Assembly: GCF_002973535.1 (NCBI RefSeq)
Contig: NZ_PVEP01000004.1
Location: forward strand, 131,501 to 195,500
DNA: 64,000 bases
Reading direction: 5' to 3'
Origin: Albidovulum denitrificans
GTDB taxonomy: Bacteria; Pseudomonadota; Alphaproteobacteria; Rhodobacterales; Rhodobacteraceae
In this document: positions 2,525 to 20,245 of the stretch, in pieces
Position numbering within the stretch: the stretch's first letter is position 1
Layout of the letters: each line of letters starts with the position of its first letter
The notes under the pieces: model-generated
Databases searched by the model: none
Told to the model about the DNA's origin: nothing
Seen by the model: only the letters and a program-made list of their open reading frames with translations
Made by a program: the position numbers and the translations under genes

Positions 2525-3397
2525 ATGACGATCTTCAACCTTGGTTCGATCAATATCGACCACTTCTATCGCCTGCCGCACCTGCCCCTGCCGGGGGAGA
2601 CGCTGGCGGCCACCGATTACAGCACCGGGCTGGGCGGCAAGGGCGCGAACCAGTCTGCCGCCGCCGCGAAGGCAGGGGTGCGGGTGGTTCATATCGGCGC
2701 GATCGGGGCCGACGGCGGCTGGACGATCGGGCGGTTGAAGGGCTGGGGCGTCGATACCTCGGCCATCGCGACCATCGACACGCCGACCGGCCATGCGATC
2801 ATCAATGTCGATGCCGGGGGCGAGAATTCCATCGTGATCTTTCCCGGCGCCAACCGGGCCATGCCGTTCGACATCGTCGAACGCGCGCTGGCCGGGGCGC
2901 GGCCGGGCGATACGCTTCTGATCCAGAATGAAACCGCGCATCAGGCGCAAGCCGCCGATCTGGCCCGCGCGAAGGGTCTGCATGTCATGTATTCCGCCGC
3001 GCCTTTCGATGTGGACGCGGTGCGCGCGGTGCTGAAAAACGTCTCTATCCTTGCCCTGAACGCGGTCGAGGCGCAGCAATTGACCGCCGCGATGGGCGTC
3101 ACGCTTGACGATCTCGACGTGCCTGAGCTTTTGGTGACGCGCGGTGCCGACGGGGCCGAATGGCGCGGCGACGGCAAGGTCTTTACCGCCGCGTTGCACA
3201 AGGTGACGGCGGTCGATACCACCGGTGCAGGCGATACCTTCGCGGGCTATTTCGCCGCCGGGCGCGACGCCGGGATGACCCCGGCCGAGGCGCTTGACCT
3301 TGCCGCTGCCGCCGCCAGCCTCAAGGTCACGCGGGCGGGTACGGCCGATGCGATTCCGACGCGGGATGAGGTGGCGGCCTTTCGCGTTAATGGATGA
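2525..3397 (+). CDS. PfkB-family (ribokinase-like) sugar kinase
   Basis: A 290-residue cytoplasmic PfkB-family kinase that should phosphorylate a sugar or nucleoside with ATP. It has the N-terminal signature STGLGGKGANQS (residues 33-44) and the C-terminal anion-hole/catalytic motif DTTGAGDTFAGY with general base Asp237. ATG 2525 lies 13 bases after the maeB stop behind gggagggcg, so the two genes are probably co-transcribed. The substrate cannot be read from the sequence: ribokinase is closest in style, but no ribose transporter is nearby. Its 3' end overlaps the convergent msrA gene by 11 bases. Confidence 0.85.
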   Translation: MTIFNLGSINIDHFYRLPHLPLPGETLAATDYSTGLGGKGANQSAAAAKAGVRVVHIGAIGADGGWTIGRLKGWGVDTSAIATIDTPTGHAIINVDAGGENSIVIFPGANRAMPFDIVERALAGARPGDTLLIQNETAHQAQAADLARAKGLHVMYSAAPFDVDAVRAVLKNVSILALNAVEAQQLTAAMGVTLDDLDVPELLVTRGADGAEWRGDGKVFTAALHKVTAVDTTGAGDTFAGYFAAGRDAGMTPAEALDLAAAAASLKVTRAGTADAIPTRDEVAAFRVNG

Positions 3398-4010
3398 ACG
3401 GGGCCGCGCTGCCCCAAAGCTGTTTCACCCGCTGATCCCGGCCGCAGGCCTTGCGGTAGAAGGCATAGGCACCCGCCTGCGTCTTCAGCCCCCGACGGGT
3501 CAGGACGATGTGCTTTCCACGATAGTAGTTCTGGTGTTCCTCACCGGCCTTATAGAAGGGTCCGGCGGGCAGGATCATGGTCGCCACCTTTCGGCCAAGG
3601 GCTGCTTGTGCCTTGGCTTTCGCGGCCTCGGCGGCGGCCTTTTCCGCGGCCGTCTTCACGAAGATCGCGGTCCGGTAGCTGGACCCGCGATCGCAGAACT
3701 GCCCGCCCGCGTCGGTTGGATCGACGGAGCGGAAGAAAAGCTCAAGGATCTGCTCATAGCTGATGCGGGCGGGGTCGTAGAAGATTTGCGCGGCCTCGTA
3801 ATGCCCTGTCTTTCCGCCTTTCACCTCCTTGTAGGTCGGGTTTCTGGTCTTTCCGCCGGTAAAGCCGGAAATGACGCCTTTGACCCCCGGCACGCTTTCG
3901 AAATCCGCCTCGACACACCAGAAACACCCCCCGGCGACCGTGGCGATGCTGGTCTTCGCAACGGCGGGCGAGGCCATCAGCAAAGCCAGGCTCAGGATCA
4001 TACGCAGCAT
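3387..4010 (-). CDS. msrA: Exported peptide-methionine (S)-S-oxide reductase
   Basis: A 207-residue MsrA that repairs Met-S-sulfoxide. The catalytic motif GCFWC places the nucleophilic Cys at residue 29; EEHQNYY and downstream residues fit the family. Unlike the usual cytosolic MsrA, it begins with a hydrophobic signal sequence (MLRMILSLALLMASPAVA), so it probably works in the periplasm. ATG 4010 follows aggaggtg. A much longer upstream frame exists but covers the divergent aminotransferase and is not coding. A periplasmic methionine repair enzyme is notable because a Met-repeat exported protein is encoded 6 kb away, although the two are not linked by operon. Confidence 0.93.
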   Translation of the reverse strand: MLRMILSLALLMASPAVAKTSIATVAGGCFWCVEADFESVPGVKGVISGFTGGKTRNPTYKEVKGGKTGHYEAAQIFYDPARISYEQILELFFRSVDPTDAGGQFCDRGSSYRTAIFVKTAAEKAAAEAAKAKAQAALGRKVATMILPAGPFYKAGEEHQNYYRGKHIVLTRRGLKTQAGAYAFYRKACGRDQRVKQLWGSAAPFIH

Positions 4011-8940: not shown

Positions 8941-9316
8941 CGCGGCGGCGGTGGCGGGCGATTCGCGGGTTCGGGTGCTTTCGCGGCTCCCGTTTACCGG
9001 GAATCCGCGGGCCGGGCCGCCGTTTCAGGACCGGCGGCAATTTCGCGTCGTTATGACGCATGACAATGTGTCAGCGCCAAAATGACAGCATGTCCGGGGC
9101 CGGTCGGGTTTTTCCTTTACCTTTTCGCAACCCTGTCCCCTGCGTGACGAAATGGCAGGGATCAGGTTGGGTGACAGATTTCTAACCCACTCAAAACAAA
9201 CAAAAAATGTTTGATTGGCCGCAACAAGCGCCCATAGGTTCCCCATCACCGCACAGACCCCCGAGCCACGTTGGAAGGGGCGTCTGGCAGCGGTATTGCC
9301 AAAAGGGGAGCTCAGG
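8941..9316 (+). promoter_or_regulatory. 376-bp regulatory region of the Met-repeat/molybdoenzyme operon
   Basis: No gene is seen here. Two candidate elements stand out. First, a perfect palindrome CAAACA-N5-TGTTTG at 9197-9213 in a locally A-rich stretch could be an operator; it overlaps TTGATT (9211-9216), which could be a -35 box with a poor -10 near 9234. Second, TGGCAGCGGTATTGCC at 9285-9300 has GG and GC exactly 12 bases apart, as in sigma-54 promoters, but would start RNA near 9311, leaving almost no leader before ATG 9317. The linked regulator lacks the sigma-54 contact loop, so the second site may be coincidental. Confidence 0.45.
9197..9213. promoter_or_regulatory. Palindromic operator candidate CAAACA-N5-TGTTTG
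   Basis: A perfect 6-bp inverted repeat with a 5-base A-only spacer in an otherwise GC-rich intergenic region, 104 bases before the first gene of the accessory operon. It is a plausible binding site for the NtrC-type regulator encoded at 18869, whose Fis-type helix-turn-helix would bind as a dimer. This is inference from position and symmetry only. Confidence 0.4.
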
Positions 9317-9604
9317 ATGCGTGCTGTTTCCAAGAAACTTACGATTGCGGTCCTGGTCCTGCTTCCCACGGTGCTTCAGGCGCAGGAGCTTTTCATCGCG
9401 GGCGTGCATCCCGGCGAAAGACCGGCGAATGCGCCTGTTGTCACCGACTATCCCAAGGATGCCGCCTGGTTTGAACGGGCGCTGCACGGCATCACTGAGC
9501 CGCACCCCGACAGTCTTCGTTTCCTCGAATCCCAGGGGGCGTGGTTCACGCCGTTCGACCGGCCCGGAATGACGGGTCCCTACGACATCCGCGATTGGCA
9601 TTGA
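9317..9604 (+). CDS. Small secreted protein of unknown function
   Basis: A 95-residue protein with a clear cleavable signal sequence (residues 1-22, ending VLQA before QE). The mature part has no cysteines and is rich in Pro, His and aromatic residues, with a C-terminal segment GAWFTPFDRPGMTGPYDIRD. I recognise no family. It is the first gene after the 8941-9316 regulatory region and lies 96 bases before the Met-repeat gene, so it is likely part of the same periplasmic system. ATG 9317 follows gctcagg, a weak site. It could be an accessory or chaperone of the redox enzyme. Confidence 0.65.
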   Translation: MRAVSKKLTIAVLVLLPTVLQAQELFIAGVHPGERPANAPVVTDYPKDAAWFERALHGITEPHPDSLRFLESQGAWFTPFDRPGMTGPYDIRDWH

Positions 9605-9700: not shown

Positions 9701-10657
9701 ATGAAAATGAAATCTCACACGCTCGCAGCGGTTCTGTGCTCCGCAGCCCTGTTCGCCGCGCCGACCGTCGCAAGCGCTGACAGCATGTCGGGCATGGATG
9801 GCATGTCCGGTATGGGCGGTATGTCGGGTATGTCCGGCATGGGTGGCATGTCCGGTATGGGCGGCATGTCGGGTATGTCCGGCATGGGTGGCATGTCCGG
9901 TATGAGCGGCATGTCCGGCAATGGCGGCATGAGCTGGGTCTGCACCCAGTGGACCAGCACGGGTATGGGCGGCATGTCGGGTATGTCCGGTATGGGTGGC
10001 ATGTCCGGTATGGGCGGTATGTCCGGCATGGGCGGCATGTCCGGCATGGGCGGCATGTCCGGCATGGGCGGCATGTCCGGCATGGGCGGTATGGCTGGCA
10101 TGGACGGCATGTCGGGCATGGGTGGCATGTCCGGTATGGGCGGCATGTCGGGCATGGGCGGCATGGCTGGCATGGACGGCATGTCGGGCATGGGCGGTAT
10201 GGCTGGCATGGACGGCATGTCGGGCATGGGCGGTATGGCTGGCATGGACGGCATGTCGGGCATGGGTGGCATGGCTGGCATGGACGGCATGTCCGGTATG
10301 GGTGGCATGTCGGGCATGGGTGGCATGTCCGGTATGGGCGGCATGTCCGGTATGGGCGGCATGTCCGGTATGGGTGGCATGTCCGGTATGGGCGGCATGT
10401 CCGGTATGGGTGGCATGTCCGGTATGGCCGGCAATGCTTCCGGCTGGGTCTGCACCCAGTGGACCGTCTCCGGTCCGGCGATGTCGGGCATGAGCGGCAT
10501 GTCCGGTATGGGCGGCATGTCCGGTATGGGCGGCATGTCGGGCATGGGTGGCATGTCCGGTATGGGCGGCATGTCCGGCATGGGCGGCATGTCGGGCATG
10601 GGTGGCATGTCCGGTATGGACGGCATGTCGGGCATGGACGGTATGTCCGGCAACTAA
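9701..10657 (+). CDS. Exported Met-Gly-Ser repeat protein with two WVCTQWT motifs
   Basis: A 318-residue protein: signal sequence 1-26 (cut after VASA), then three blocks of degenerate M-S-G-M-G-G repeats in which roughly every third residue is Met. The blocks are separated by two copies of WVCTQWT, with Cys81 and Cys251 the only cysteines after the signal. Variant units carry Ala or Asp (MAGMDG). The reading frame is supported by the signal peptide, the RBS ggagaaag, and residues that differ from the repeat only at the motifs. Such a Met density suggests metal binding (Cu), haem or quinone contact, or an oxidant sink that cycles through Met sulfoxide. The gene sits just before the cytochrome and a sulfoxide-reductase-type enzyme. 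I know of no named family. Confidence 0.8.
   Translation: MKMKSHTLAAVLCSAALFAAPTVASADSMSGMDGMSGMGGMSGMSGMGGMSGMGGMSGMSGMGGMSGMSGMSGNGGMSWVCTQWTSTGMGGMSGMSGMGGMSGMGGMSGMGGMSGMGGMSGMGGMSGMGGMAGMDGMSGMGGMSGMGGMSGMGGMAGMDGMSGMGGMAGMDGMSGMGGMAGMDGMSGMGGMAGMDGMSGMGGMSGMGGMSGMGGMSGMGGMSGMGGMSGMGGMSGMGGMSGMAGNASGWVCTQWTVSGPAMSGMSGMSGMGGMSGMGGMSGMGGMSGMGGMSGMGGMSGMGGMSGMDGMSGMDGMSGN
9785..10650 (+). repeat. Tandem 9/18-bp coding repeats (atgtccggtatgggcggc type)
   Basis: Degenerate tandem units of nine and eighteen bases in three blocks (9785-9929, 9965-10431, 10481-10650) encode the Met-Gly-Ser protein. Because unit length is a multiple of three, slippage changes copy number without breaking the frame, so length polymorphism between strains is expected. 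The periodicity opens long false frames on both strands. Confidence 0.95.
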
Positions 10658-10730: not shown

Positions 10731-12221
10731 ATGAAAAAGCTTGAAGGCCTGCTGGGCATCGTGGCGGGCATATTCTTTTCGCTCACCGCTCTCATTGCCC
10801 TGATGGTGATCGCAACACTGATCTACAAAGGGCCTGCGCGCCACGCTACGGCGGTGGCCCAATCGGCCGCACCGGCGGATGCCGCACCCGCTACCCAACC
10901 CGAAACCGCTGCCGCGCCCGCGCCGACCGCCGAGGTCAAGACCGCCGGGGTGAGTGTCGCGGCGGGCGAAAAGGTTTTCAAGAAATGCAAGGCTTGCCAC
11001 ACGGTCGATGAGGGCGGCAAGAACACCACCGGACCCAACCTCTGGGATATCCTCGACCGCGGCATCGCCGCGCATGAGGGGTTCGCCTATTCCGACGGGA
11101 TGTCGGCGAAGGCCGGGGACAGCTGGGACGTGGCGCTTCTCGACCAGTATCTGACCAAGCCGAAAGATGTGGTTCCGGGGACCAAGATGGCCTTCGCGGG
11201 CCTGCCCAAGGAAGAGGACCGGCAGAACGTCATCGTCTATCTCGCCAGCCTGTCTGCCAACCCGAAAAGCGCCGAGGCGCTTGGCTTTGCAGCCGCGAGC
11301 GGAACCGAGGTCGCCGCCGCTGAAAGCCCGGCCGCCGACGGCCCGGTTGAGATTGAGCCTGTCCCCTACCCGGACGGCGTGACCTATACCAACCCGCCCG
11401 CGCCGACGGATGCCGAAATCGCGGCCTCGGCCGCGGCGGTGGAGGAGATCCAGAAGGAACTCGCCACGATGGATTACGAGCGTGCGCAGTATGATCCGAT
11501 CCATTTCGCACCCGCGATCAACACTGCCACGAACGAGGAATGCCTGACCTGCCACCAGGAGATCATGGACCACAAGCCGCGCGAGACGTCGCAGGCGGGG
11601 GTTGCCGCCACGGACACGATCGCGTGGTACCAGACGCTGGATACCTACACCCAGGATCAGGCGAGCTTTCACTGGCGGCATATGGAAAGCGATTTCGCCA
11701 AGGAGGTGATGAACCTTCAGTGCGTCTTCTGCCACAAGGGCAACGACCCGCGTGAGGAAAGCCCCGACATGCTGCCGACCCGCGCCGCGTTCAGCGCCCC
11801 CGCGCAGCCGGAGTTCACCTTGCGCAAGATGGTCAACCCCTCGACCACCTGCCTGCTCTGCCATGGCGCGATGCCCGACCCCGAGAACATCATGGGTCTT
11901 GCGGGCGACTGGCCCGAGGCGCGCGTCGATCTTGAGACACCTGAGGCCCCGAATGGCTGCCTGAGCTGCCACGCGGAGTTGTTCCGTACCGAGCGTCACA
12001 ACGTGTCCTACCTGAAGGCCGCGAATATCGAGGAGCTGGCCCGCGCCGGGTCGTCGGACAGCTGCTACGGCTGTCATGGCGGGCGGCAGTGGTACCGCAT
12101 CTCCTACCCCTATCCGCGCCATGCCTGGCCCGGAATGGATGACAGCGAGGTCCCGGACTGGGCGGTCAACCGCCCGACGGAATCGGACCCTGAATACGCC
12201 CTGCCCGCCGCCGCGCAATAG
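10731..12221 (+). CDS. Membrane-anchored hexahaem cytochrome c (class I domain fused to a pentahaem domain)
   Basis: A 496-residue protein with one N-terminal membrane helix (about 8-31), an Ala/Pro linker, and a class I cytochrome c domain (about 75-178) with CKACH at 86-90 and the axial-Met candidate PGTKM (Met153). A second linker leads to a C-terminal region with five more CxxCH sites: CLTCH 271, CVFCH 331, CLLCH 374, CLSCH 410 and CYGCH 445. Six c-type haems are predicted, all periplasmic. It lies directly upstream of the molybdoenzyme and most likely passes electrons between the membrane or soluble cytochrome pool and that enzyme, replacing a DmsC-type membrane anchor. The fusion of CycM-like and pentahaem parts is unusual. 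Direction of electron flow is not evident. Confidence 0.85.
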   Translation: MKKLEGLLGIVAGIFFSLTALIALMVIATLIYKGPARHATAVAQSAAPADAAPATQPETAAAPAPTAEVKTAGVSVAAGEKVFKKCKACHTVDEGGKNTTGPNLWDILDRGIAAHEGFAYSDGMSAKAGDSWDVALLDQYLTKPKDVVPGTKMAFAGLPKEEDRQNVIVYLASLSANPKSAEALGFAAASGTEVAAAESPAADGPVEIEPVPYPDGVTYTNPPAPTDAEIAASAAAVEEIQKELATMDYERAQYDPIHFAPAINTATNEECLTCHQEIMDHKPRETSQAGVAATDTIAWYQTLDTYTQDQASFHWRHMESDFAKEVMNLQCVFCHKGNDPREESPDMLPTRAAFSAPAQPEFTLRKMVNPSTTCLLCHGAMPDPENIMGLAGDWPEARVDLETPEAPNGCLSCHAELFRTERHNVSYLKAANIEELARAGSSDSCYGCHGGRQWYRISYPYPRHAWPGMDDSEVPDWAVNRPTESDPEYALPAAAQ

Positions 12222-12231
12222 GAGAGAGATC

Positions 12232-14781
12232 ATGGACGGAAGCATCACCAACGGGTCCCCGCAAAGCACGTCCCGCCGCGCGTTCCTGAAGGCATCGGCG
12301 GCGACGGCGGCGACCGGGCTTGTCCTCGGCGCCGGGGCGAAAGAGGCCAAGGCCTTTGCCTATGAGCCCTATCCCCGCGACGACGATCTTGAGACGGTCG
12401 TGACAAGCTGCGCCCACAACTGCGGGTCGCGTCACATGCTGGTCGCGCACAAGAAGGGCGACGTCATCGTCCGCCTGTCGACCGACAACGGCACCTATCA
12501 GGGCGACGCCTACGGCACCGATACCGAGGAAAAGCCGCAGCTGCGTGCCTGTCTGCGCGGCCGGTCCTACCGCTCGCGGCTCTATTCGCCTGAGCGGCTG
12601 CTGTACCCGATGAAGCGCGTCGGTGCGCGCGGCGAGGGCAAGTTCAAGCGCGTAACCTGGGACGAGGCGCTGTCCGACATCGCCCAGCGGATGGTCTATC
12701 TGCGCGACACCTACGGGCCGACGGCGCTTCTCGACCAATCTTATGCCGGGGCGTCCTATGGCGTCCTGCATAAGTCCGACCAGATCGAGGGCCTTCTTGG
12801 GCGCTTCATGGGTATGTTCGGGTGTCGTACCTCGAGCTGGTCGGTGCCGTCCTATCAGGGGACCACATTCTCAAGCCGGACGACCTTCGGTACGATCCAG
12901 GACGGGAATGAGGATGACGCCTTCGCGCATTCGAAGCTGATCATCATGTGGGGCTGGAACCCGGCCTATACGTTCCACGGCGGCAACACGTTCTATTACA
13001 TGCGGATGGCCAAGCAGCGCGGCTGCAAGTTCGTCCTTGTCGATCCGCAATATACCGACTCCGCCTCGGCCTATGACGCGTGGTGGATTCCGATCCGGCC
13101 CAATACCGATGCCGCGATGATGGCCGGGATGGCCTATCACATCTGGGACAACGACTGGCACGATCAGGCGTTCATCGACCGCTTTGTCCAGGGCATGGAC
13201 AAGGGGACGATGCCCGGCTGGGCGCAGGGCCAGGAAAGCTTCAAGGACTATATCTTTGGTGAGCGTGACGGGGTCGCGAAGACGCCGGAATGGGCGGCCG
13301 AGATTTGTGGCGTCAAGGCCGAGGACATCAAGAAACTGGCCGAGATGTATGCCACGACCAAGCCCGCGGCGCTGAAGGCGAGCTGGTCTCCGGGGCGGAA
13401 CGCCTATGGCGAGCAGTATAACCGCATGGCCGCCGCGCTTCAGTCGATGACGGGCAATATCGGTATCCTTGGCGGTTGTGCCGAGGGTGTTGGCAAGGCC
13501 TGGCACGCCGAGGCGGTGGCCTATCCCTATGACCAGTTCGCGAATGTCTGGTACGCCTCGATCAAGTCCGACCGCTGGGCGCATTGCGTCCTGAACTACC
13601 CCAACCTCAAGCGCGAGGAAATCGGGCTTTGGCCGCGGATGGACCAGCTTGACGGGGTGGCGCCGAATATCCGCGGGATCTTCTGGCAGGGGTCGGACTG
13701 GCTGAACCAGTTGACCAACATCAACAAGGAAATCGCCGCGATCCGCAAGCTGGACAGCTATGGCGAGGGCGAGAGCCTTCTGGTCTGCATGGACAGCACG
13801 ATCACCCCGACGGGGATCTGGGCCGACTATCTTCTGCCCATCGCCACCCATTTCGAACGGCATGATGTGGCGCTGCCCTGGTACAAGGGGCATTACTACA
13901 TCCACCGTCCGGTGGTCATTCAGCCGCTGGGCGAATCCAAGACCGACTTCCAGGTCTTTACCGAGCTTGCCTATCGCCTTGGTTTCGGTCCCGGCTATAA
14001 CCCCCGCGCGACGCGCGACTACTTCAACGACCCGACCCAGGTCGATGAGGCCTATCTGGTCGCCTGGTGGGACAATGTGCGCCATCATCAGGGGGTCGAG
14101 TGGGACTGGGAGACGTTCAAGAAGCGCGGAGTCTACAAATTCGTCCTGCCCGAGCCGCATGTCGCCTTCCGGCCGCAGATCGAGCAGGGGATGCCGTTCG
14201 AGACGCCGTCGGGCAAGATCGAGATCTTCTCCACCACGCTTGCGCAGACGCCGGACTGGACCCGGACGCAATATGGCTACGAAATCCCGGCGATCCCGAA
14301 ATGGATCGAGCCGTGGGAAAGCCTGAACCACCCCAAGGCCAAGGAATTCCCCTTCCACATGATCAGCCCGCATCCGCGTTGGCGGACGCACTCGATCTTC
14401 AACAACATCCCGTGGCTGCGTGAGACCTTCGCGCAGGAAACGATGATGAACGCCTCGGATGCCGAGAAGATGGGTATCCGCACCGGCGACACGATCGAAT
14501 GTTGGAACGAACGCGGGCGGGTCATCACGCCGGTCTATGTCAGCGAACGCTGCATGCCGGGGGTGGTGGTCCTGCACGAAGGTGCCTGGATGGACCTTGA
14601 TGAGGATGGCGTCGACCGGTCCGGCAACCCGGACTTCCTGACCCTCGACAACCCATCTCCTGCGGGGGCCTTCGCCTATAACACGGTGCTTTGCAACGTG
14701 AAGAAAAGCGATCTTAACCACCGGCCCGGCTGGGACAAGCTGTCGACCGCGCGGAGCCATGTGTTCCGTCGCGACCTTTGA
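12232..14781 (+). CDS. Tat-exported DmsA-like molybdopterin oxidoreductase, catalytic subunit
   Basis: An 849-residue DMSO-reductase-family enzyme. A Tat signal (SRRAFLK, 14-20) sends the folded protein to the periplasm. The sequence RACLRGRSYRSRLYSPERL followed by PMKRVGARGEGKF is close to E. coli DmsA, and Ser207 (VPSYQG) aligns with the DmsA molybdenum-ligating Ser. The FS0 cluster site reads C60-x3-C64-x3-H68 ... C107, so the third Cys of DmsA is His here. Followed by a DmsB-like subunit and a TorD chaperone, but no DmsC. Likely substrates are sulfoxides or N-oxides; oxidation of a thioether is also possible because the partner is a cytochrome. ATG 12232 follows ggagagagatc. Confidence 0.88.
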   Translation: MDGSITNGSPQSTSRRAFLKASAATAATGLVLGAGAKEAKAFAYEPYPRDDDLETVVTSCAHNCGSRHMLVAHKKGDVIVRLSTDNGTYQGDAYGTDTEEKPQLRACLRGRSYRSRLYSPERLLYPMKRVGARGEGKFKRVTWDEALSDIAQRMVYLRDTYGPTALLDQSYAGASYGVLHKSDQIEGLLGRFMGMFGCRTSSWSVPSYQGTTFSSRTTFGTIQDGNEDDAFAHSKLIIMWGWNPAYTFHGGNTFYYMRMAKQRGCKFVLVDPQYTDSASAYDAWWIPIRPNTDAAMMAGMAYHIWDNDWHDQAFIDRFVQGMDKGTMPGWAQGQESFKDYIFGERDGVAKTPEWAAEICGVKAEDIKKLAEMYATTKPAALKASWSPGRNAYGEQYNRMAAALQSMTGNIGILGGCAEGVGKAWHAEAVAYPYDQFANVWYASIKSDRWAHCVLNYPNLKREEIGLWPRMDQLDGVAPNIRGIFWQGSDWLNQLTNINKEIAAIRKLDSYGEGESLLVCMDSTITPTGIWADYLLPIATHFERHDVALPWYKGHYYIHRPVVIQPLGESKTDFQVFTELAYRLGFGPGYNPRATRDYFNDPTQVDEAYLVAWWDNVRHHQGVEWDWETFKKRGVYKFVLPEPHVAFRPQIEQGMPFETPSGKIEIFSTTLAQTPDWTRTQYGYEIPAIPKWIEPWESLNHPKAKEFPFHMISPHPRWRTHSIFNNIPWLRETFAQETMMNASDAEKMGIRTGDTIECWNERGRVITPVYVSERCMPGVVVLHEGAWMDLDEDGVDRSGNPDFLTLDNPSPAGAFAYNTVLCNVKKSDLNHRPGWDKLSTARSHVFRRDL

Positions 14782-14801: not shown

Positions 14802-15476
14802 ATGGCAAACCAAGTCGACAAGGCCCGGATCAAGGAAAACGTCGCGCGCATGAAGCGCGAGACCTACACCCCGGTGGTGCCGGACATGCAGATGGGGTTC
14901 GTCCACAACAACGTGGACTGCATCGGCTGCCGCGCCTGCGAAATCGCCTGCAAGGACAAGAACGGGCTGGCGGCCGGCCCGCGCTTTCGCCGGGTGCAAT
15001 ATATTGAGGGCGGGACCTATCCCGAGGTCTTCGCCTTCAAGATCAACATGTCCTGCAACCATTGCGCCGAACCGGCCTGCCTTCCGGCCTGCCCGACCGG
15101 CGCGATCTTCAAGCGCAAGGATAACGGGGTCGTCGATATCGATTCGACCCTCTGCATCGGGTGCCGCAAGTGCGAGGCGGCCTGCCCCTTTGGCGCGCCG
15201 CAGTTCAACGTGGAACTGAACATCGTCCAGAAGTGCAACATGTGCGTGGATGAGCTTGAGGTTGGCCGTGATCCCTATTGCGTCGCGGCCTGCATGATGC
15301 GGGTTCTCGATGTCGGGCCGATCGACCAGATCGCCGATGGCAGCTATGACACCAAGGCTGTCGGCCCGAATGAGACGGTGGTCCGGCAGGTCCGTTCGAT
15401 GGCGGACCCTGAGCTGACCAACCCGTCGATCCGCTTCGTGCCGCATTCGAAGGGGATTGTTCAAGATGGCCAGTGA
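14802..15476 (+). CDS. DmsB-like four-cluster iron-sulfur subunit
   Basis: A 224-residue ferredoxin-type subunit with four cysteine groups, CIGCRACEIAC, CNHCAEPACLPAC, CIGCRKCEAAC and CNMCVDELEVGRDPYCVAAC, consistent with four [4Fe-4S] clusters as in DmsB, TtrB and PhsB. It has no signal of its own and should be carried through the Tat system with the catalytic subunit. It would connect the FS0 cluster of the molybdoenzyme with the hexahaem cytochrome. ATG 14802 is 20 bases after the preceding stop with a strong gaggagagag site; its end overlaps the chaperone gene by 11 bases, indicating translational coupling. Confidence 0.92.
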   Translation: MANQVDKARIKENVARMKRETYTPVVPDMQMGFVHNNVDCIGCRACEIACKDKNGLAAGPRFRRVQYIEGGTYPEVFAFKINMSCNHCAEPACLPACPTGAIFKRKDNGVVDIDSTLCIGCRKCEAACPFGAPQFNVELNIVQKCNMCVDELEVGRDPYCVAACMMRVLDVGPIDQIADGSYDTKAVGPNETVVRQVRSMADPELTNPSIRFVPHSKGIVQDGQ

Positions 15477-16212
15477 CGCCCGCACCCTTGGCTCTGATGC
15501 GGCGTCACGGCTGGCGGACCTGGCCGATGTCGTCTCGGTCCTGGCGCGATTTCACGACCGTGAGGTCGATGCCAGGACGATCGACTGGCTCAGGCAGTTC
15601 GACGTCGCCGGTTTCTTCGCCGAGGTTCTGACCTCGGCGCCGGGACGGGCGGCGGCGAAGGCGTTCACGGCAGCGGTGGTGGCGCTGCCGGAACGTCCCT
15701 CCGCCGAGGTGATTGACGACCTCGCCGCGGAATACGCCTCGATCTATCTTAACCATGCCTATCGCGCCTCGCCCAGCGGATCGGTCTGGCTGACCGAGGA
15801 CCGGCTGGAACGGCAGATGCCGATGTTCGACGTGCGCGAGTGGTATGATCATTACGACATCTCCGTCCCCGACTGGCGCCGCCGGGCGGACGACCATATC
15901 GTGCCAGAGCTTGAATTCGTGGCCCATCTCTGCCGTTTCGGCGCGATGAGCGGGGCCGAGGATGCGGCGGGGTTCCTTGACGGGCATGTCCTGAACTGGA
16001 TGCCCGAGTTTCTGGAAAAGGCCGCGCGTCCGGCGCAATGTGCGCTTTACCGCGCGATCCTGCAAATGACCGACGCGGTTCTGGACGAGTTGAGGGATGA
16101 GCTTGAGGCGATCACCGGGCGCGCGCGGCAGGTGGCTTTCCCGACCTCGGACGACGCGCAGCAGGCCGAGACGGCGGCGCCCTACTTTCCCGGCGTCGCG
16201 GAAAGCTGGTAG
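15466..16212 (+). CDS. TorD/DmsD-family molybdoenzyme maturation chaperone
   Basis: A 248-residue all-helical cytoplasmic protein of the TorD family, which binds the Tat signal and folds the apo-enzyme during cofactor insertion. The central segment AAEYASIYLNHAYRASPSGSV and the later DHIVPELEFVAHL (the E-P-D-H-type signature region) fit the family. Residues 220-248 form an extra charged tail. Overlap with the DmsB-like gene and location in the operon support a role dedicated to the molybdoenzyme. ATG 15466 is chosen; a TTG nine bases earlier is possible. Confidence 0.85.
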   Translation: MASDARTLGSDAASRLADLADVVSVLARFHDREVDARTIDWLRQFDVAGFFAEVLTSAPGRAAAKAFTAAVVALPERPSAEVIDDLAAEYASIYLNHAYRASPSGSVWLTEDRLERQMPMFDVREWYDHYDISVPDWRRRADDHIVPELEFVAHLCRFGAMSGAEDAAGFLDGHVLNWMPEFLEKAARPAQCALYRAILQMTDAVLDELRDELEAITGRARQVAFPTSDDAQQAETAAPYFPGVAESW

Positions 16213-16217
16213 GGCGC

Positions 16218-16991
16218 ATGGCGGGGGCGTTGTCCTGGGCGTCGATCCGCCAGGGTACGGCTTACCTGCGGTGCCGACAGGGGCCACGCGCCTTCTGTGT
16301 CGGCCAGATTGACCTTGAAAGGCTGGCGCAGATCTATCTGGCGGGCGTTCTGCACGTCATTACCGCGCCCTGCAACTGCGGCAATCACGCCGAGGGCGCG
16401 GATCGGGTCATCGGGCAGTTCAACGACCTGATCCGGGTCCGCGGCCTGCCCGAAATCAACCATCGTGAGGTCGCGGTGGAGATCGTCCGCAACGGCGCGG
16501 GCGAAAGCATCGATGGCGCCCGTCGCGGGTTCCTGCGTCGGGTCAGCGATGTGGTGGTCGAGGATGAAGAGGCCGCAGAAGACCCGCCCGCCCTTGCCGC
16601 GATCCTTGCTTTCGGGGCCGAGGATCCGAACGTCCCTTACCCCTGGGTGCCGGTCTTCGACGCCGATCTTTGTACCGGATGCAATGGATGCATCAACGTC
16701 TGCCCGGAAGACAGTTTGATCTTGATCACGGCAGAGGATGGCACGGTGTGCTATGGGGCGCGTCCTGAAACGTGCAACGGGTGCGAACTTTGTATGTCGG
16801 TTTGCGAGTATGGGGCGATTGAGCTGCGTGGGATGACCGCGCGCAGCCCCGATATTCCGCTTGTTTCCGGTGTCTGCCGGGCCTGCGGTGTCGACTATCA
16901 CGAACCTGCCGGACGCGAGTCCGCAAGCGGGTTCTGTCCGGTCTGTCGCAGGACCGGGCATCATCGCAAGCTTTTCCAGGTCATTCAGTGA
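16218..16991 (+). CDS. Ferredoxin-like protein with two [4Fe-4S] sites and a C-terminal zinc ribbon
   Basis: A 257-residue soluble protein with no signal. The N-terminal ~125 residues carry scattered cysteines (LRC, FCVG, PCNCG) and no family I can name. Residues ~148-200 hold a two-cluster ferredoxin, CTGCNGCINVCPE and CNGCELCMSVCEYGA. The C terminus is a zinc-ribbon pair, CRACG and CPVC. It is not a standard subunit of DMSO-type reductases. As a cytoplasmic iron-sulfur protein next to TorD it may assist cluster or cofactor loading, or supply electrons for maturation. Stop and the following kinase start overlap (GTGA), so expression is coupled. Confidence 0.7.
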   Translation: MAGALSWASIRQGTAYLRCRQGPRAFCVGQIDLERLAQIYLAGVLHVITAPCNCGNHAEGADRVIGQFNDLIRVRGLPEINHREVAVEIVRNGAGESIDGARRGFLRRVSDVVVEDEEAAEDPPALAAILAFGAEDPNVPYPWVPVFDADLCTGCNGCINVCPEDSLILITAEDGTVCYGARPETCNGCELCMSVCEYGAIELRGMTARSPDIPLVSGVCRACGVDYHEPAGRESASGFCPVCRRTGHHRKLFQVIQ

Positions 16992-18865
16992 TCCGGCTGT
17001 CCCGGAGCGCCACCGCGCGTTTCGGCGCGCTGTCGCTTCAGCGCAAGTTCGCGCTGGTGGCGGGGGCGCTGATGTTTGCCACCTCGCTCTGCTTCCTGAT
17101 CCTTGTCCTTGGGCTGCACCTGAACAGCGTTTCGGCATCGAACGAACGGGCGGTGCGTTCGGTCAACCGGCTTTTGCAGGCAGCGTTGGAAAACGCGATG
17201 CTGAAGCGCGATATTCCGGGGCTGCGAGAGATCATCACCGATCTTGGCGCGCAGGACGGTATTCGCGGGGTGATGATCGTCAACCCCGAGGGAGAGGTGC
17301 GCTTTTCCTCATATGAACAGGACCTCTACAGCACCTTCGACGACCCGGCGCTGACCGAGGCGCTGGCAAGTCAGAGCCAGCAGACGGAGTTCCGTGCGGT
17401 CGGGGGGGTCGATGTCCTTCGAAGCATCAACCCGGTCCTGAACAAGCAGCAGTGCAACGTCTGCCATGGCCTGTCCGCCGATCATCCGGTGAACGGCCTT
17501 CTGGTGATCGACTACGAAACCGCCGGGACGCGGCGTTATGCCCTGATCGGGGCCGCGCTCCTGATGGCGCTTGGCCTTGTCGTCGTGCTGGCGGTTGAGG
17601 GTGGGCTCTGGGTCGCGCTGCGGAAGATCGTCCTGGACCGGGTCGCGCGGCTTGACAGTGCCTTCGCGCAGGTGGGCGCGGGCAATCTTGACGCGCGGAC
17701 CGATGTCGTCGGCGGGGATGAGATCGGGCGGCTGGCGGGGAACTTCAACCTGATGTCGGACCGGCTGGCGATGTCGGTCGATAGGCTGCGGGCCTCGGAG
17801 GCGTTCTTGCAGGACCTGATCGACGCGGTTCCCGACGGCATTCGCGTCATCGGCCCCGATTTCCGCATCATCGTGGCCAACGCCGCCTATCTGCGCCAGG
17901 TCGGCGCCGATCGCGCTTCGGTCGTGGGGCAGCCCTGCCATCTGTCCAGCCATGGACGCGACGCGCCCTGCATCCCGACGATGCGGACCTGTCCGGTGGC
18001 CGCGCTTCTCCATGACCGCACGGAAAGCTTCTGCAAGTTCAACGACCGCCATCTGCGCGACGGCGCTGGCCTGTCGGTCGAGGTTTCGGCAGTGACGGCG
18101 AATATGGTGATCGACGGGCAGAGCGTGCCCTGCGTGATCGAATCCATCCGCGATCTTGAGGCGGAGGTGCAAATCTCCCATTCCGAGCGTCTGTCTGAGA
18201 TCGGCCTTCTGGCCGCCGGGATCGCGCATGAGGTCTATAATCCCCTGTCGTCGATCCGCCTTGCGCTGCGCGCGGTGGCCAACCAGCCGAACCTGACCGA
18301 GGCGACGCGCAATTACCTGTCCATCGCGGATACGGAGATTTCGAGCTGCCAGGGCTTCACCGACGGCTTGCTCAGGCTTGCTTCGCGCCCGTCGCCGCAT
18401 CTGGAACTGGTGGCGCTTCGGGCCGCGATCGTCGAGACGGCAGCGCTTCTGAACTATCAGGCGGAACAATCCGACGCGAAGATCGACATCGACATCGAGG
18501 GGGAGCCGCGCGTTCTGGCCCATGACAGCGAGATCAGGATGCTGGTCTTCAACCTGGTCCTGAACGCGGTTCACGCCATGCCCGATGGCGGCCCCGTCCG
18601 CGTGTCCTGCCGCGCCGACGGGGCGGGACGCATCCGGCTTCAGGTGGCCGATACCGGCGTCGGCATCCCCGAGGATCTGCGCGACAAGGTGATGCTGCCT
18701 TTCTGGACGCGCCGCGCGGATGGCAGCCGGGGGCGGGGCCTTGGCCTGACGATCTGCAACGCCATCGTCGGGGCGCTGGGCGGACAGATCGGGTTCGAAA
18801 GCGAGGTTGGGCGCGGTACGGTCTTTACCGTCGATCTCGCCGATGCCGACAAGAAGGAGGAGTGA
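16988..18865 (+). CDS. Sensor histidine kinase with periplasmic c-haem motif and Cys-rich PAS domain
   Basis: A 625-residue membrane kinase: TM1 about 21-44, a periplasmic sensor domain 45-184 containing CNVCH (Cys156, Cys159, His160), TM2 about 185-208, HAMP to about 263, a PAS domain with the cluster Cys317-His318, His322, Cys328, Cys335 and Cys349, then a HisKA domain with phospho-acceptor His414 (GIAHEVYNPL), N box NLVLNAVHAM and G boxes. Covalent haem in the sensor would report periplasmic redox state or a ligand, and the Cys/His group in PAS could bind metal or act as a thiol switch. The following regulator is its partner (3-base gap). Confidence 0.88.
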   Translation: MIRLSRSATARFGALSLQRKFALVAGALMFATSLCFLILVLGLHLNSVSASNERAVRSVNRLLQAALENAMLKRDIPGLREIITDLGAQDGIRGVMIVNPEGEVRFSSYEQDLYSTFDDPALTEALASQSQQTEFRAVGGVDVLRSINPVLNKQQCNVCHGLSADHPVNGLLVIDYETAGTRRYALIGAALLMALGLVVVLAVEGGLWVALRKIVLDRVARLDSAFAQVGAGNLDARTDVVGGDEIGRLAGNFNLMSDRLAMSVDRLRASEAFLQDLIDAVPDGIRVIGPDFRIIVANAAYLRQVGADRASVVGQPCHLSSHGRDAPCIPTMRTCPVAALLHDRTESFCKFNDRHLRDGAGLSVEVSAVTANMVIDGQSVPCVIESIRDLEAEVQISHSERLSEIGLLAAGIAHEVYNPLSSIRLALRAVANQPNLTEATRNYLSIADTEISSCQGFTDGLLRLASRPSPHLELVALRAAIVETAALLNYQAEQSDAKIDIDIEGEPRVLAHDSEIRMLVFNLVLNAVHAMPDGGPVRVSCRADGAGRIRLQVADTGVGIPEDLRDKVMLPFWTRRADGSRGRGLGLTICNAIVGALGGQIGFESEVGRGTVFTVDLADADKKEE

Positions 18866-18868
18866 CGC

Positions 18869-20245
18869 ATGGCCGAGCCGAACATCATCGTGATCGAGGA
18901 CGACCGCAACCTGAACGCGCTTCTAAGCGGTCAGCTTGCCGAAGAGGGGTTCCGCGTCACCTCGGCCCATAGTTGCCGGGAGGGGCGGGCGCTTCTGGAA
19001 GGGTCAGAGCCGAACCTGATGATCATCGACATTCGTCTGCCCGACGGCGACGGGTTCGAGTTCATTCGGCAATATGGCGAGATCTTCCCGATCATCGTCC
19101 TGACCGCCTATGGCACCGTCGATCAGGCGGTTGAGGCGGTTCAGGCGGGGGCGAGCGACTATCTGCTCAAGCCGATTTCCTTCGACGCGCTCAAGGTCGC
19201 CATCGGCCGCGCGCTGGCGACGGTCGAGCTGAAGCGTGACGTGCAGTACTGGCAGAAGCGGGCGCAGAAGGACCTGAACGTCACCATCGTCGGCAACAGC
19301 CCGAAGGTGGCGCATATGCGCCATCTGATCGAGCTTTATGCCGTCACCGATTCCAGCCTTCTGATCGTTGGCGAAAGCGGCGTCGGGAAAGAGCTTGTGG
19401 CCCATGCGATCCATAAGAAAAGCGACCGCAAGAACGGCCGGTTCGTCGCGGTGGATTGCGATCCGGCTCAGGAAAGCAATGTCGCGCAAGAGCTTTTCGG
19501 CGAGGAACAGACCATGCGCGGCGGCGCCCGGCGCGAGGGGATGCTGGCCATCGCGCAGAACGGGACGATCTATGTCAACAACGTTGCCGAGATGTCGTTG
19601 GCGCTGCAAAGCAAGCTTTTGCGGGTGATGGAGACGGGGACGTTCCGGCGTGTGGGCGGGACGCAGGACCTTGTCACCAATGTCCGCATCCTTGCCGCGA
19701 CCAGCAGCAACCTTCAGGCCCGGATTGCCGATGATCGTTTCCGCAGCGAGTTGTTCTATCGCCTGAACGCTTTCTGCATCGAGGTGCCGCCGCTGCGCGA
19801 CCGGTTGACGGATGTCCCGCTGCTGGCAGAGCATTTCCTGAAATACCGCAACTTCCAGCGCGGGATAGACAAGCGTCTGGCGGCCGACACCATCGCCGCG
19901 CTGACCGATTACGCCTGGCCCGGCAACGTGCGTGAGCTGCGCAACGCCATCGAACGCGGTGTCATCATGTCGGGGCAGGAGGAAGAGATCACCGCCGCCC
20001 ATGTCGGCATCAGCGCGACGCGAAGCGCGGCCGGGGATCATGGCGGCGTGGTTCTGGGCTTTGACTATGAACCGACGATGGAGGAGGTGCGGGACCACTA
20101 CATCCGCATGTTGTTGCGCCGCTATGACGGCAATCGCCGGAAGGTGGCCGGAATCCTCGGTATCAGCGAACGCAACACCTATCGTCTTGTCGGCAAGCTT
20201 GAGGTGGATGGCGAAACGGGCGGCTTGGGTGGCGCGGCGGAATAG
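18869..20245 (+). CDS. NtrC-family response regulator lacking GAFTGA and Walker B acids
   Basis: A 458-residue REC-AAA-Fis protein. The receiver has Asp54 and Lys101. Walker A is intact (GESGVGKE, 168-175). The GAFTGA loop that contacts sigma-54 is absent: ELFGEEQTMRGGA occupies its place. Walker B, usually TLFLDE, reads TIYVNN, so both acids are Asn. The arginine-finger region FRSELFYRLN and a C-terminal Fis-type helix-turn-helix (RKVAGILGISERNTYRLVGK) remain. By analogy with Rhodobacter capsulatus NtrC, which also lacks GAFTGA and works with the housekeeping sigma factor, it probably regulates without sigma-54 remodelling. Its target is presumably the 9317-16991 operon. Confidence 0.9.
   Translation: MAEPNIIVIEDDRNLNALLSGQLAEEGFRVTSAHSCREGRALLEGSEPNLMIIDIRLPDGDGFEFIRQYGEIFPIIVLTAYGTVDQAVEAVQAGASDYLLKPISFDALKVAIGRALATVELKRDVQYWQKRAQKDLNVTIVGNSPKVAHMRHLIELYAVTDSSLLIVGESGVGKELVAHAIHKKSDRKNGRFVAVDCDPAQESNVAQELFGEEQTMRGGARREGMLAIAQNGTIYVNNVAEMSLALQSKLLRVMETGTFRRVGGTQDLVTNVRILAATSSNLQARIADDRFRSELFYRLNAFCIEVPPLRDRLTDVPLLAEHFLKYRNFQRGIDKRLAADTIAALTDYAWPGNVRELRNAIERGVIMSGQEEEITAAHVGISATRSAAGDHGGVVLGFDYEPTMEEVRDHYIRMLLRRYDGNRRKVAGILGISERNTYRLVGKLEVDGETGGLGGAAE

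Follow-up and report, generated by a model that had tools for sequence, protein, structure and literature searches.

The FS0 iron–sulfur cluster of the molybdenum enzymes related to DmsA adjoins the molybdenum (Mo) centre and gates all the electrons that enter or leave these proteins. In the NarG-type (type II) enzymes, a histidine serves as the first ligand of FS0, and several type II enzymes work with c-type electron partners. According to an excerpt of PMC8840923, FS0 is bound in subfamily II by three cysteines and one histidine, the His ligand being conserved. The present text deals with a DmsA-like catalytic subunit encoded in a stretch of 64,000 nucleotides from Albidovulum denitrificans, referred to hereafter as the window, in which a histidine residue, His68, occupies the place of the third FS0 cysteine. 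This replacement is a fixed trait of an entire clade, not a local oddity, and its occurrence goes far beyond chance. It goes together with the loss of DmsC from the locus, with a multihaem cytochrome and with a methionine-rich (Met-rich) repeat protein.

The catalytic subunit, which would bind Mo-bis(pyranopterin guanine dinucleotide) (Mo-bisPGD) and carries a signal for twin-arginine translocation (Tat), and its key residues are distributed along the window as follows:
12232..14781, forward strand: DmsA-like Mo-bisPGD catalytic subunit of 849 amino acids with a 3Cys:1His FS0 motif
12274..12279, forward strand: twin arginine R15-R16 of the Tat signal, read from the sequence (PF10518 E = 0.0024, under the cut-off)
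12409..12411, forward strand: codon tgc of Cys60, FS0 ligand 1
12421..12423, forward strand: codon tgc of Cys64, FS0 ligand 2
12433..12435, forward strand: codon cac of His68, which replaces the third FS0 Cys
12550..12552, forward strand: codon tgt of Cys107, FS0 ligand 4
12850..12852, forward strand: Ser207, which matches the Ser of DorA/DmsA in the alignment and is the presumed Mo ligand, a role taken from family knowledge

The motif Cys60-x3-Cys64-x3-His68...Cys107, reported by the first-pass annotation of this DNA, proves exact in both coordinates and residues, the FS0 stretch of the window protein reading ...TSC60AHNC64GSRH68MLVAHKKGD...QLRAC107LRGRS. The C-x3-C-x3-C...C arrangement which the same annotation attributed to DmsA is found in the Escherichia coli protein (...SACTVNCGSRCPLRMHVVDG...QVRACLRGRS, from the serS-dmsABC context of a plasmid-collection record), where it takes the form C63-TVN-C67-GSR-C71; BLASTP aligns His68 to Cys71 within the common motif NCGSR[H/C], the two proteins sharing 36% identity over 828 columns. 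Position 3 is the sole FS0 change, Cys60, Cys64 and Cys107 being kept. The Fe4S4 domain PF04879 scores 18.5 bits in the window protein and 15.9 bits in a second family member, both under the cut-off of 22.7; the four Cys-bearing relatives tried all lie above this value, at 24.2 to 60.2 bits.

The distribution of the histidine was followed in samples of 198 genomes of the window's family, 385 of its class and 398 of its phylum, and in a fourth sample of 321 genomes from the class, probably Gammaproteobacteria, of G662, a relative belonging to the same phylum. Gene neighbourhoods were compared in 80 loci, the best 80 of 583 relatives obtained from a scan of genome_contigs. The protein alignment comprises 140 rows including the window protein, near-identical reads having been removed. 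One hundred rows show at least 65% identity, 98 of them with all four columns readable; the two rows set aside consist of one without column 60 that nevertheless bears His68, and of L095, truncated before this residue. Among the 40 rows below 45% identity, 30 bear FS0 and 10 are devoid of it (nine DorA-like proteins and one fragment). No Cys orthologue appeared in this alignment, which was the check proposed for the site in the first-pass annotation: C60-C64-H68-C107 occurs in 98/98 readable rows at 65% identity or more, as opposed to Cys at column 68 in 30/30 of the FS0-bearing rows below 45%. Column 60 is Cys in 98 of the 99 His68 rows, the other row having no residue there. A nearby cysteine acting as a substitute ligand, which the annotation had named as an observation that would count against its reading, was also looked for and none was found, since no Cys at all occurs between residues 65 and 106 in 98/99 His68 rows; therefore, no neighbouring Cys can replace His68 in these proteins.

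A tree was built from 63 rows, and a single branch sets the 32 His rows apart from the others with a support of 100 in the Shimodaira–Hasegawa-like approximate likelihood ratio test (SH-aLRT). From the record titles, the carriers of the His-type DmsA span the Alpha-, Beta- and Gammaproteobacteria; many of the named carrier genomes are metagenome-assembled genomes (MAGs), and two labels which look wrong were disregarded for the taxonomy, namely Exiguobacterium for a protein 82% identical to that of the window (L050) and Desulfobulbus for another (L068), whose neighbour on the tree is a betaproteobacterial MAG. A cultivated carrier exists, namely Rhodobacter xanthinilyticus LPB0142, whose plasmid pEJ01 harbours an annotated copy (WP_071167317.1) within the same gene order. 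In one tubeworm-symbiont MAG (L090), a second and more divergent His-type DmsA (16639-19191, about 69-71% identity) lies beside the first, and no Met-rich open reading frame (ORF) stands in front of this second copy.

The nearest tree neighbours of the His clade (SH-aLRT 87) form a sister clade of five alphaproteobacterial proteins with Cys at column 68 (L026, L027, L028, L030 and L031; 36-40% identity; motif CGHNCGG), a position which is insecure as long branches meet there, according to a warning of the tree tool. The reading frames of these five proteins begin without a twin-arginine signal, and the proteins are perhaps cytoplasmic. Relatives at about 45-65% identity were not found in the samples of the window's family, its class and the G662 class, so that the Cys-to-His step is not bracketed there.

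With regard to the function of the residue, the conservation pattern makes His68 a probable FS0 ligand, which we hold with good confidence. Two kinds of observation weigh against this assignment. A second histidine, His62, is likewise invariant (99/99 His68 rows), and the AlphaFold2 models are poor precisely around the motif: the first one, built from 55 close relatives, has predicted local distance difference test (pLDDT) scores <50 at residues 1-96 and 104-113, the second one at residues 63-66 and 105-111, and neither of them places His68. The second model, built with more distant relatives from viral_contigs, shows strands 54-59, 69-75 and 78-84 around the motif. Since the Cys-bearing sister clade possesses His62 too, this residue is the weaker candidate and His68 the natural fourth ligand. 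Another explanation is that His68 only shapes the loop, FS0 being a three-Cys site that holds either a [3Fe-4S] cluster or a [4Fe-4S] cluster in which one iron is open. The low-confidence loop of both models leaves room for it, as do the N-terminal [3Fe-4S] clusters described in the superfamily for AioA/IdrA (PMC10100899, excerpt); however, the presence of exactly a His at the exact site in 98/98 rows exceeds what a filler residue would require, and a non-ligand role is distinctly unlikely.

The effect of the swap on the potential of FS0 can be approached by analogy. In an [FeFe]-hydrogenase, a His-ligated cluster displays a midpoint potential of -565 mV, compared to -630 mV for the Cys variant, a shift of +65 mV (PMC9019909, excerpt). 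Taking together this shift and the 3Cys:1His FS0 of the type II enzymes, the swap is read as an upward tuning of FS0, and a potential raised by the neutral His68 seems moderately likely. As to its experimental detection, the excerpt of PMC8840923 reports no electron paramagnetic resonance (EPR) signal of FS0 in EbDH, DmsABC or SerABC; FS0 may be EPR-silent here as well, and EPR by itself may therefore not decide the ligation.

Depending on the family model, the protein departs from each of the described groups. Ser207 is present in every FS0-bearing row that reaches the column, and the sequence places the protein in the Ser-ligand branch of the Mo-bisPGD enzymes. TIGR02166 (dmsA_ynfE), which ranks first among the NCBIfam models, gives 607 bits for the window protein and 611.5 for that of R. 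xanthinilyticus, both below the cut-off of 777.7, compared to 1440.9 bits for E. coli DmsA. With TIGR03479, the model of the type II family, the window protein scores 206.1 bits for a cut-off of 984.75; because this score lies far under the cut-off and the histidine comes third and not first, the enzyme is not of type II. A fold search only confirms the family, the best structural matches being 1eu1 and 7l5i (DorA and MtsZ), and the enzyme is not of the DorA type because the FS0 motif is kept. It is not a plain DmsA either: the third FS0 Cys and the DmsC partner were both looked for and both are lacking, and membership of the DmsA/YnfE group is not claimed. An ordinary DMSO/TMAO (dimethyl sulfoxide/trimethylamine N-oxide) respiratory enzyme in which the Cys-to-His change is neutral drift would fit the 36% identity with E. 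coli DmsA and the shared fold family. This explanation is very improbable, given the score below the subfamily cut-off, a His68 fixed in all of the members seen, and a changed electron partner in an operon deprived of DmsC.

The catalytic subunit is surrounded by the following genes:
9308..9604, forward strand: small exported protein of unknown family, 98 amino acids, the start at 9308 being chosen within ORF 9215-9604
9701..10657, forward strand: secreted Met-rich repeat protein (Met-x-Gly)n, 318 amino acids, with a signal-peptide-like start
10731..12221, forward strand: c-type cytochrome with an N-terminal membrane segment (by eye), a c550-like domain and a five-haem domain
14802..15476, forward strand: DmsB-like four-cluster Fe-S subunit with 16 Cys (TIGR02951 186.8 bits, cut-off 214.1)
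15457..16212, forward strand: TorD/NarJ-type maturation chaperone (PF02613)
16218..16991, forward strand: ferredoxin-like protein with 4Fe-4S motifs and 17 Cys
16988..18865, forward strand: sensor histidine kinase whose sensor region contains a haem-c motif, CNVCH
18869..20245, forward strand: sigma-54-dependent response regulator

By tblastn, most of the 80 loci share this gene order; several loci from Gammaproteobacteria differ in that the kinase and the regulator are located upstream on the opposite strand. The DmsB subunit has 16 Cys in 71/80 loci and, as these cysteines are kept, FS0 alone has changed. The cytochrome is matched in 78/80 loci, 59 of the matches having five CxxCH motifs, 17 having six and two having four. 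In the window, the five-haem domain contains CLTCH, CVFCH, CLLCH, CLSCH and CYGCH, and the sixth motif, CKACH, belongs to the c550-like domain fused in front; in L078, the one gammaproteobacterial locus examined in this respect, the cytochrome lacks this domain, and a one-haem cytochrome is encoded separately, just after the chaperone. The CxxCH of the kinase sensor region is kept in 47/47 loci with a match. DmsC is absent from the operon; its sole match in the genome of the window occurs at C1:400480, dmsA itself being located at C4:143732, and no DmsC match at all was obtained in three of the seven genomes tested that carry the family. A coupling to cytochrome c in place of DmsC and quinol is likely on these grounds.

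Other members of the neighbourhood were recorded in their own right. The 98-residue protein has no match in Pfam or NCBIfam; upstream tblastn matches occur in many of the 80 loci, the counterpart in R. xanthinilyticus is WP_198037906.1, and the C-terminus carries a conserved PGMxGxYDIRxWH-like motif. The ferredoxin-like protein has 17 Cys in the window versus at least 24 in most of the matched relatives (e.g., L078 13438-14511), and seems to have been shortened or remodelled in the lineage of the window.

As an alternative, the enzyme might be a dehydrogenase which oxidises reduced periplasmic (organo)sulfur compounds, e.g., a thioether, and whose electrons reach cytochrome c and the oxidases via FS0, DmsB and then the five-haem cytochrome, as in dimethyl sulfide (DMS) dehydrogenase. 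The c550-type partners and the lack of DmsC at the locus agree with this proposal, and Thiodiazotropha, Thiothrix, Sedimenticola and Thiolinea, genera known for sulfur oxidation, are among the carriers, but so are records of Dechloromonas, Paracoccus and Hyphomicrobiaceae. A His-ligated FS0 likewise occurs elsewhere in the superfamily, in enzymes linked to cytochromes (PMC8840923, excerpt). The closest relatives are nevertheless sulfoxide reductases, the TIGR03479 score (206.1 vs 984.75 bits) speaks against type II, and a dehydrogenase leaves the Met-rich protein unexplained by itself, which renders this proposal rather unlikely. Two other connections with the literature were tried and abandoned. 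In a Sedimenticola strain, the likely selenate reductase is the product of a SerA-like gene (PMC5052931), and the His clade goes unmentioned in the excerpt, from which no connection between that gene and the clade could be made. Lucinid symbionts possess dmsAB genes beside soxY and dsrAB (PMC11237559, excerpt), which may or may not belong to the His clade; they were not equated with it, no sox or dsr gene being visible by eye in L078.

The Met-rich protein contains 89 Met in 318 residues (28%), with 83/88 of the Met-Met spacings equal to 3 and most of the triplets ending in Gly. Its codons vary (GGC/GGT for Gly; TCC/TCG/AGC/TCT for Ser), which suggests conservation of the protein rather than of the DNA. 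No curated family fits the protein, only weak collagen-like matches being obtained. Among the 40 dmsA copies preceded by 2.5 kb or more of DNA, 36 have a Met-rich ORF within 4 kb upstream, as compared with 0/40 on the opposite strand of the same stretch and 0/67 in the downstream 4 kb. At the genome level, a repeat array was defined as at least three hits to a 30-base repeat pattern. In the window's family, arrays occur in 6/6 of the genomes with dmsA versus 0/192 of those without it, three of the latter having a single hit; in the G662 class, they occur in 14/14 enzyme-bearing genomes versus 2/307 of the others, six more having one or two hits. The corresponding Fisher P values, 1.3e-11 (family) and 1.1e-22 (G662 class), are too small because of the relatedness of the genomes; the co-occurrence pattern stands in two separate samples. 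In the draft genomes G1098 and G1048, and for part of G1217, the listed arrays are located on a contig other than that of the enzyme.

Further roles, and a further partner, were considered for this protein. It could serve for the binding or storage of Cu(I)/Ag(I) through Met-x-x-Met motifs, the enzyme being a separate, co-regulated respiratory S- or N-oxide reductase. A regular Met-x-x-Met arrangement (83/88 spacings of 3) is of the Cu(I)-site type, but the classified genes of the operon include no copper transporter or chaperone and the link to a DMSO-reductase homologue is specific; we consider this explanation unlikely. A sulfur-globule protein was rejected, as many of the named carriers are not known globule formers, and as the composition is rich in Met/Gly and not in the Tyr/Asn of globule proteins. 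An exported-looking MsrA (3387-4010, reverse strand; TIGR00401 161.8 bits, cut-off 108.1), encoded about 6 kb from the Met-rich gene, was discarded as a conserved partner, being matched in 1/80 loci.

A sulfoxide substrate is favoured mostly by the Met-rich protein, but also by the identity of the closest relatives and by Tyr171, which occupies the place of the Tyr in the SYGW motif of DorA, the window protein reading SYAG. The DorA enzyme of Rhodobacter sphaeroides reduces protein-bound Met sulfoxide in vitro and favours the context GAGM(O)Q (PMC7402097, excerpt), which resembles the (Met-x-Gly)n repeat. In the MrpX/YedY system, a Met-rich peptide and a Mo-dependent Met sulfoxide reductase form an oxidant sink (PMC4623255, excerpt).

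The best reading of the locus, with about an even chance of being correct, is that the enzyme has a 3Cys:1His FS0, is linked to cytochrome c and reduces sulfoxides in the periplasm; its FS0 ligation, substrate and electron direction are those we infer. Under such a scheme, the FS0 [4Fe-4S] cluster would be held by Cys60, Cys64, Cys107 and His68, and the Tat system would export the catalytic subunit together with the DmsB-type Fe-S subunit. The DmsAB complex would exchange electrons with the five-haem and c550-type cytochromes and not with quinol via DmsC, the neutral His68 lifting the FS0 potential to suit a chain at the level of cytochrome c, and would most likely reduce periplasmic sulfoxides. 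Oxidants would convert the Met residues of the repeat to Met sulfoxide, DmsAB would restore Met with respiratory electrons, and the haem-c sensor kinase and the sigma-54 regulator would turn the operon on. That the oxidised Met-rich protein is the Met-sulfoxide client of DmsAB is, by analogy, a tentative proposal whose chances lie somewhat below even.

Several facts weigh against this reading. The sulfoxide potential is near +160 mV, and a donor at the level of c550 is not obvious for a sulfoxide. The Trp of the SYGW motif, which is tied to sulfoxide reduction in the DorA/TorA/BisC group, is Gly173 in the window protein; the SYGW motif is missing in E. coli DmsA too. Four dmsA copies (L107, L110, L111 and the second copy of L090) have no upstream Met-rich ORF, and G1158 and G1191 contain arrays without the enzyme, each sharing its genus with an enzyme-bearing genome. 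The Met-rich repeats could equally bind Cu(I). More speculatively, and with a low probability, the (Met-x-Gly)n protein would be a rechargeable periplasmic redox store, i.e., a regular thioether array accepting oxygen atoms from oxidants and reset by a cytochrome-c-wired Mo enzyme, perhaps deliberately charged and discharged, with His68 adapting FS0 to the potential of cytochrome c in convergence with the first-position His of type II. The family as a whole points to a hitherto undescribed way in which oxidants or oxidised sulfur are dealt with on the outer side of the cell membrane.

A natural, clade-wide swap of the third ligand can be compared cleanly with nitrate reductase and its kin, in which the His comes first, and could reveal whether a His-ligated FS0 evolves time and again in members linked to cytochromes. 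The near-exclusive link with a Met-Gly repeat leads to the specific claim that, in many Pseudomonadota, a sacrificial or storage Met array lying outside the cytoplasmic membrane is maintained by respiratory electrons; the cultivated R. xanthinilyticus LPB0142 allows this claim to be put to the test. Neither a third-position FS0 His nor a Met-rich/DmsA pairing is described in the open-licence literature searched, which is weak evidence of absence.

Compared to the known systems, the family is distinguished by a His FS0, a cytochrome wiring and a Met-rich partner. It resembles DmsABC and YnfEFGH of E. coli by its Tat signal, the NCGSR motif at the same place, the Ser ligand of Mo and a DmsB subunit (16 Cys here), E. 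coli DmsB possessing the same four Cys groups. It differs from them by a His instead of the third FS0 Cys, the lack of DmsC at the locus, and the presence of a multihaem cytochrome, a haem-sensor kinase and a Met-rich protein. In R. sphaeroides DorA and Haemophilus influenzae MtsZ, the Ser ligand of Mo and the Tyr of SYGW are shared, whereas FS0 (from the alignment) and a DmsB partner are lacking and the Trp of SYGW is replaced by Gly here. The alphaproteobacterial sister clade differs by Cys at 68, and the twin-arginine signal is not seen there.

As for the type II enzymes (NarG, EbdA, PcrA, ClrA, SerA, DdhA), the first-pass annotation had opposed their first-position His to the third-position His found here, and this placing belongs to the general background on these enzymes. 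The other part of its statement, a His ligand of FS0 in these enzymes, is borne out by the excerpt of PMC8840923, in which the combination of 3 Cys and 1 His is established for them, the same combination being predicted here; their Mo ligand is Asp (PMC10100899, excerpt) instead of the Ser of the window protein. Repeats which are longer and more regular than those of MrpX separate the Met-rich protein from that of the hypochlorite-scavenging MrpX-YedY1 (MsrP) system of Azospira suillum. Both systems nevertheless associate an exported Met-rich protein or peptide with a reductase (PMC4623255, excerpt), of Met sulfoxide in Azospira and with a putative action on the Met-rich protein here, where the enzyme is DmsA-like, the electron chain is another one, and the control is exerted by a sigma-54 two-component system and not by SigF/NrsF.

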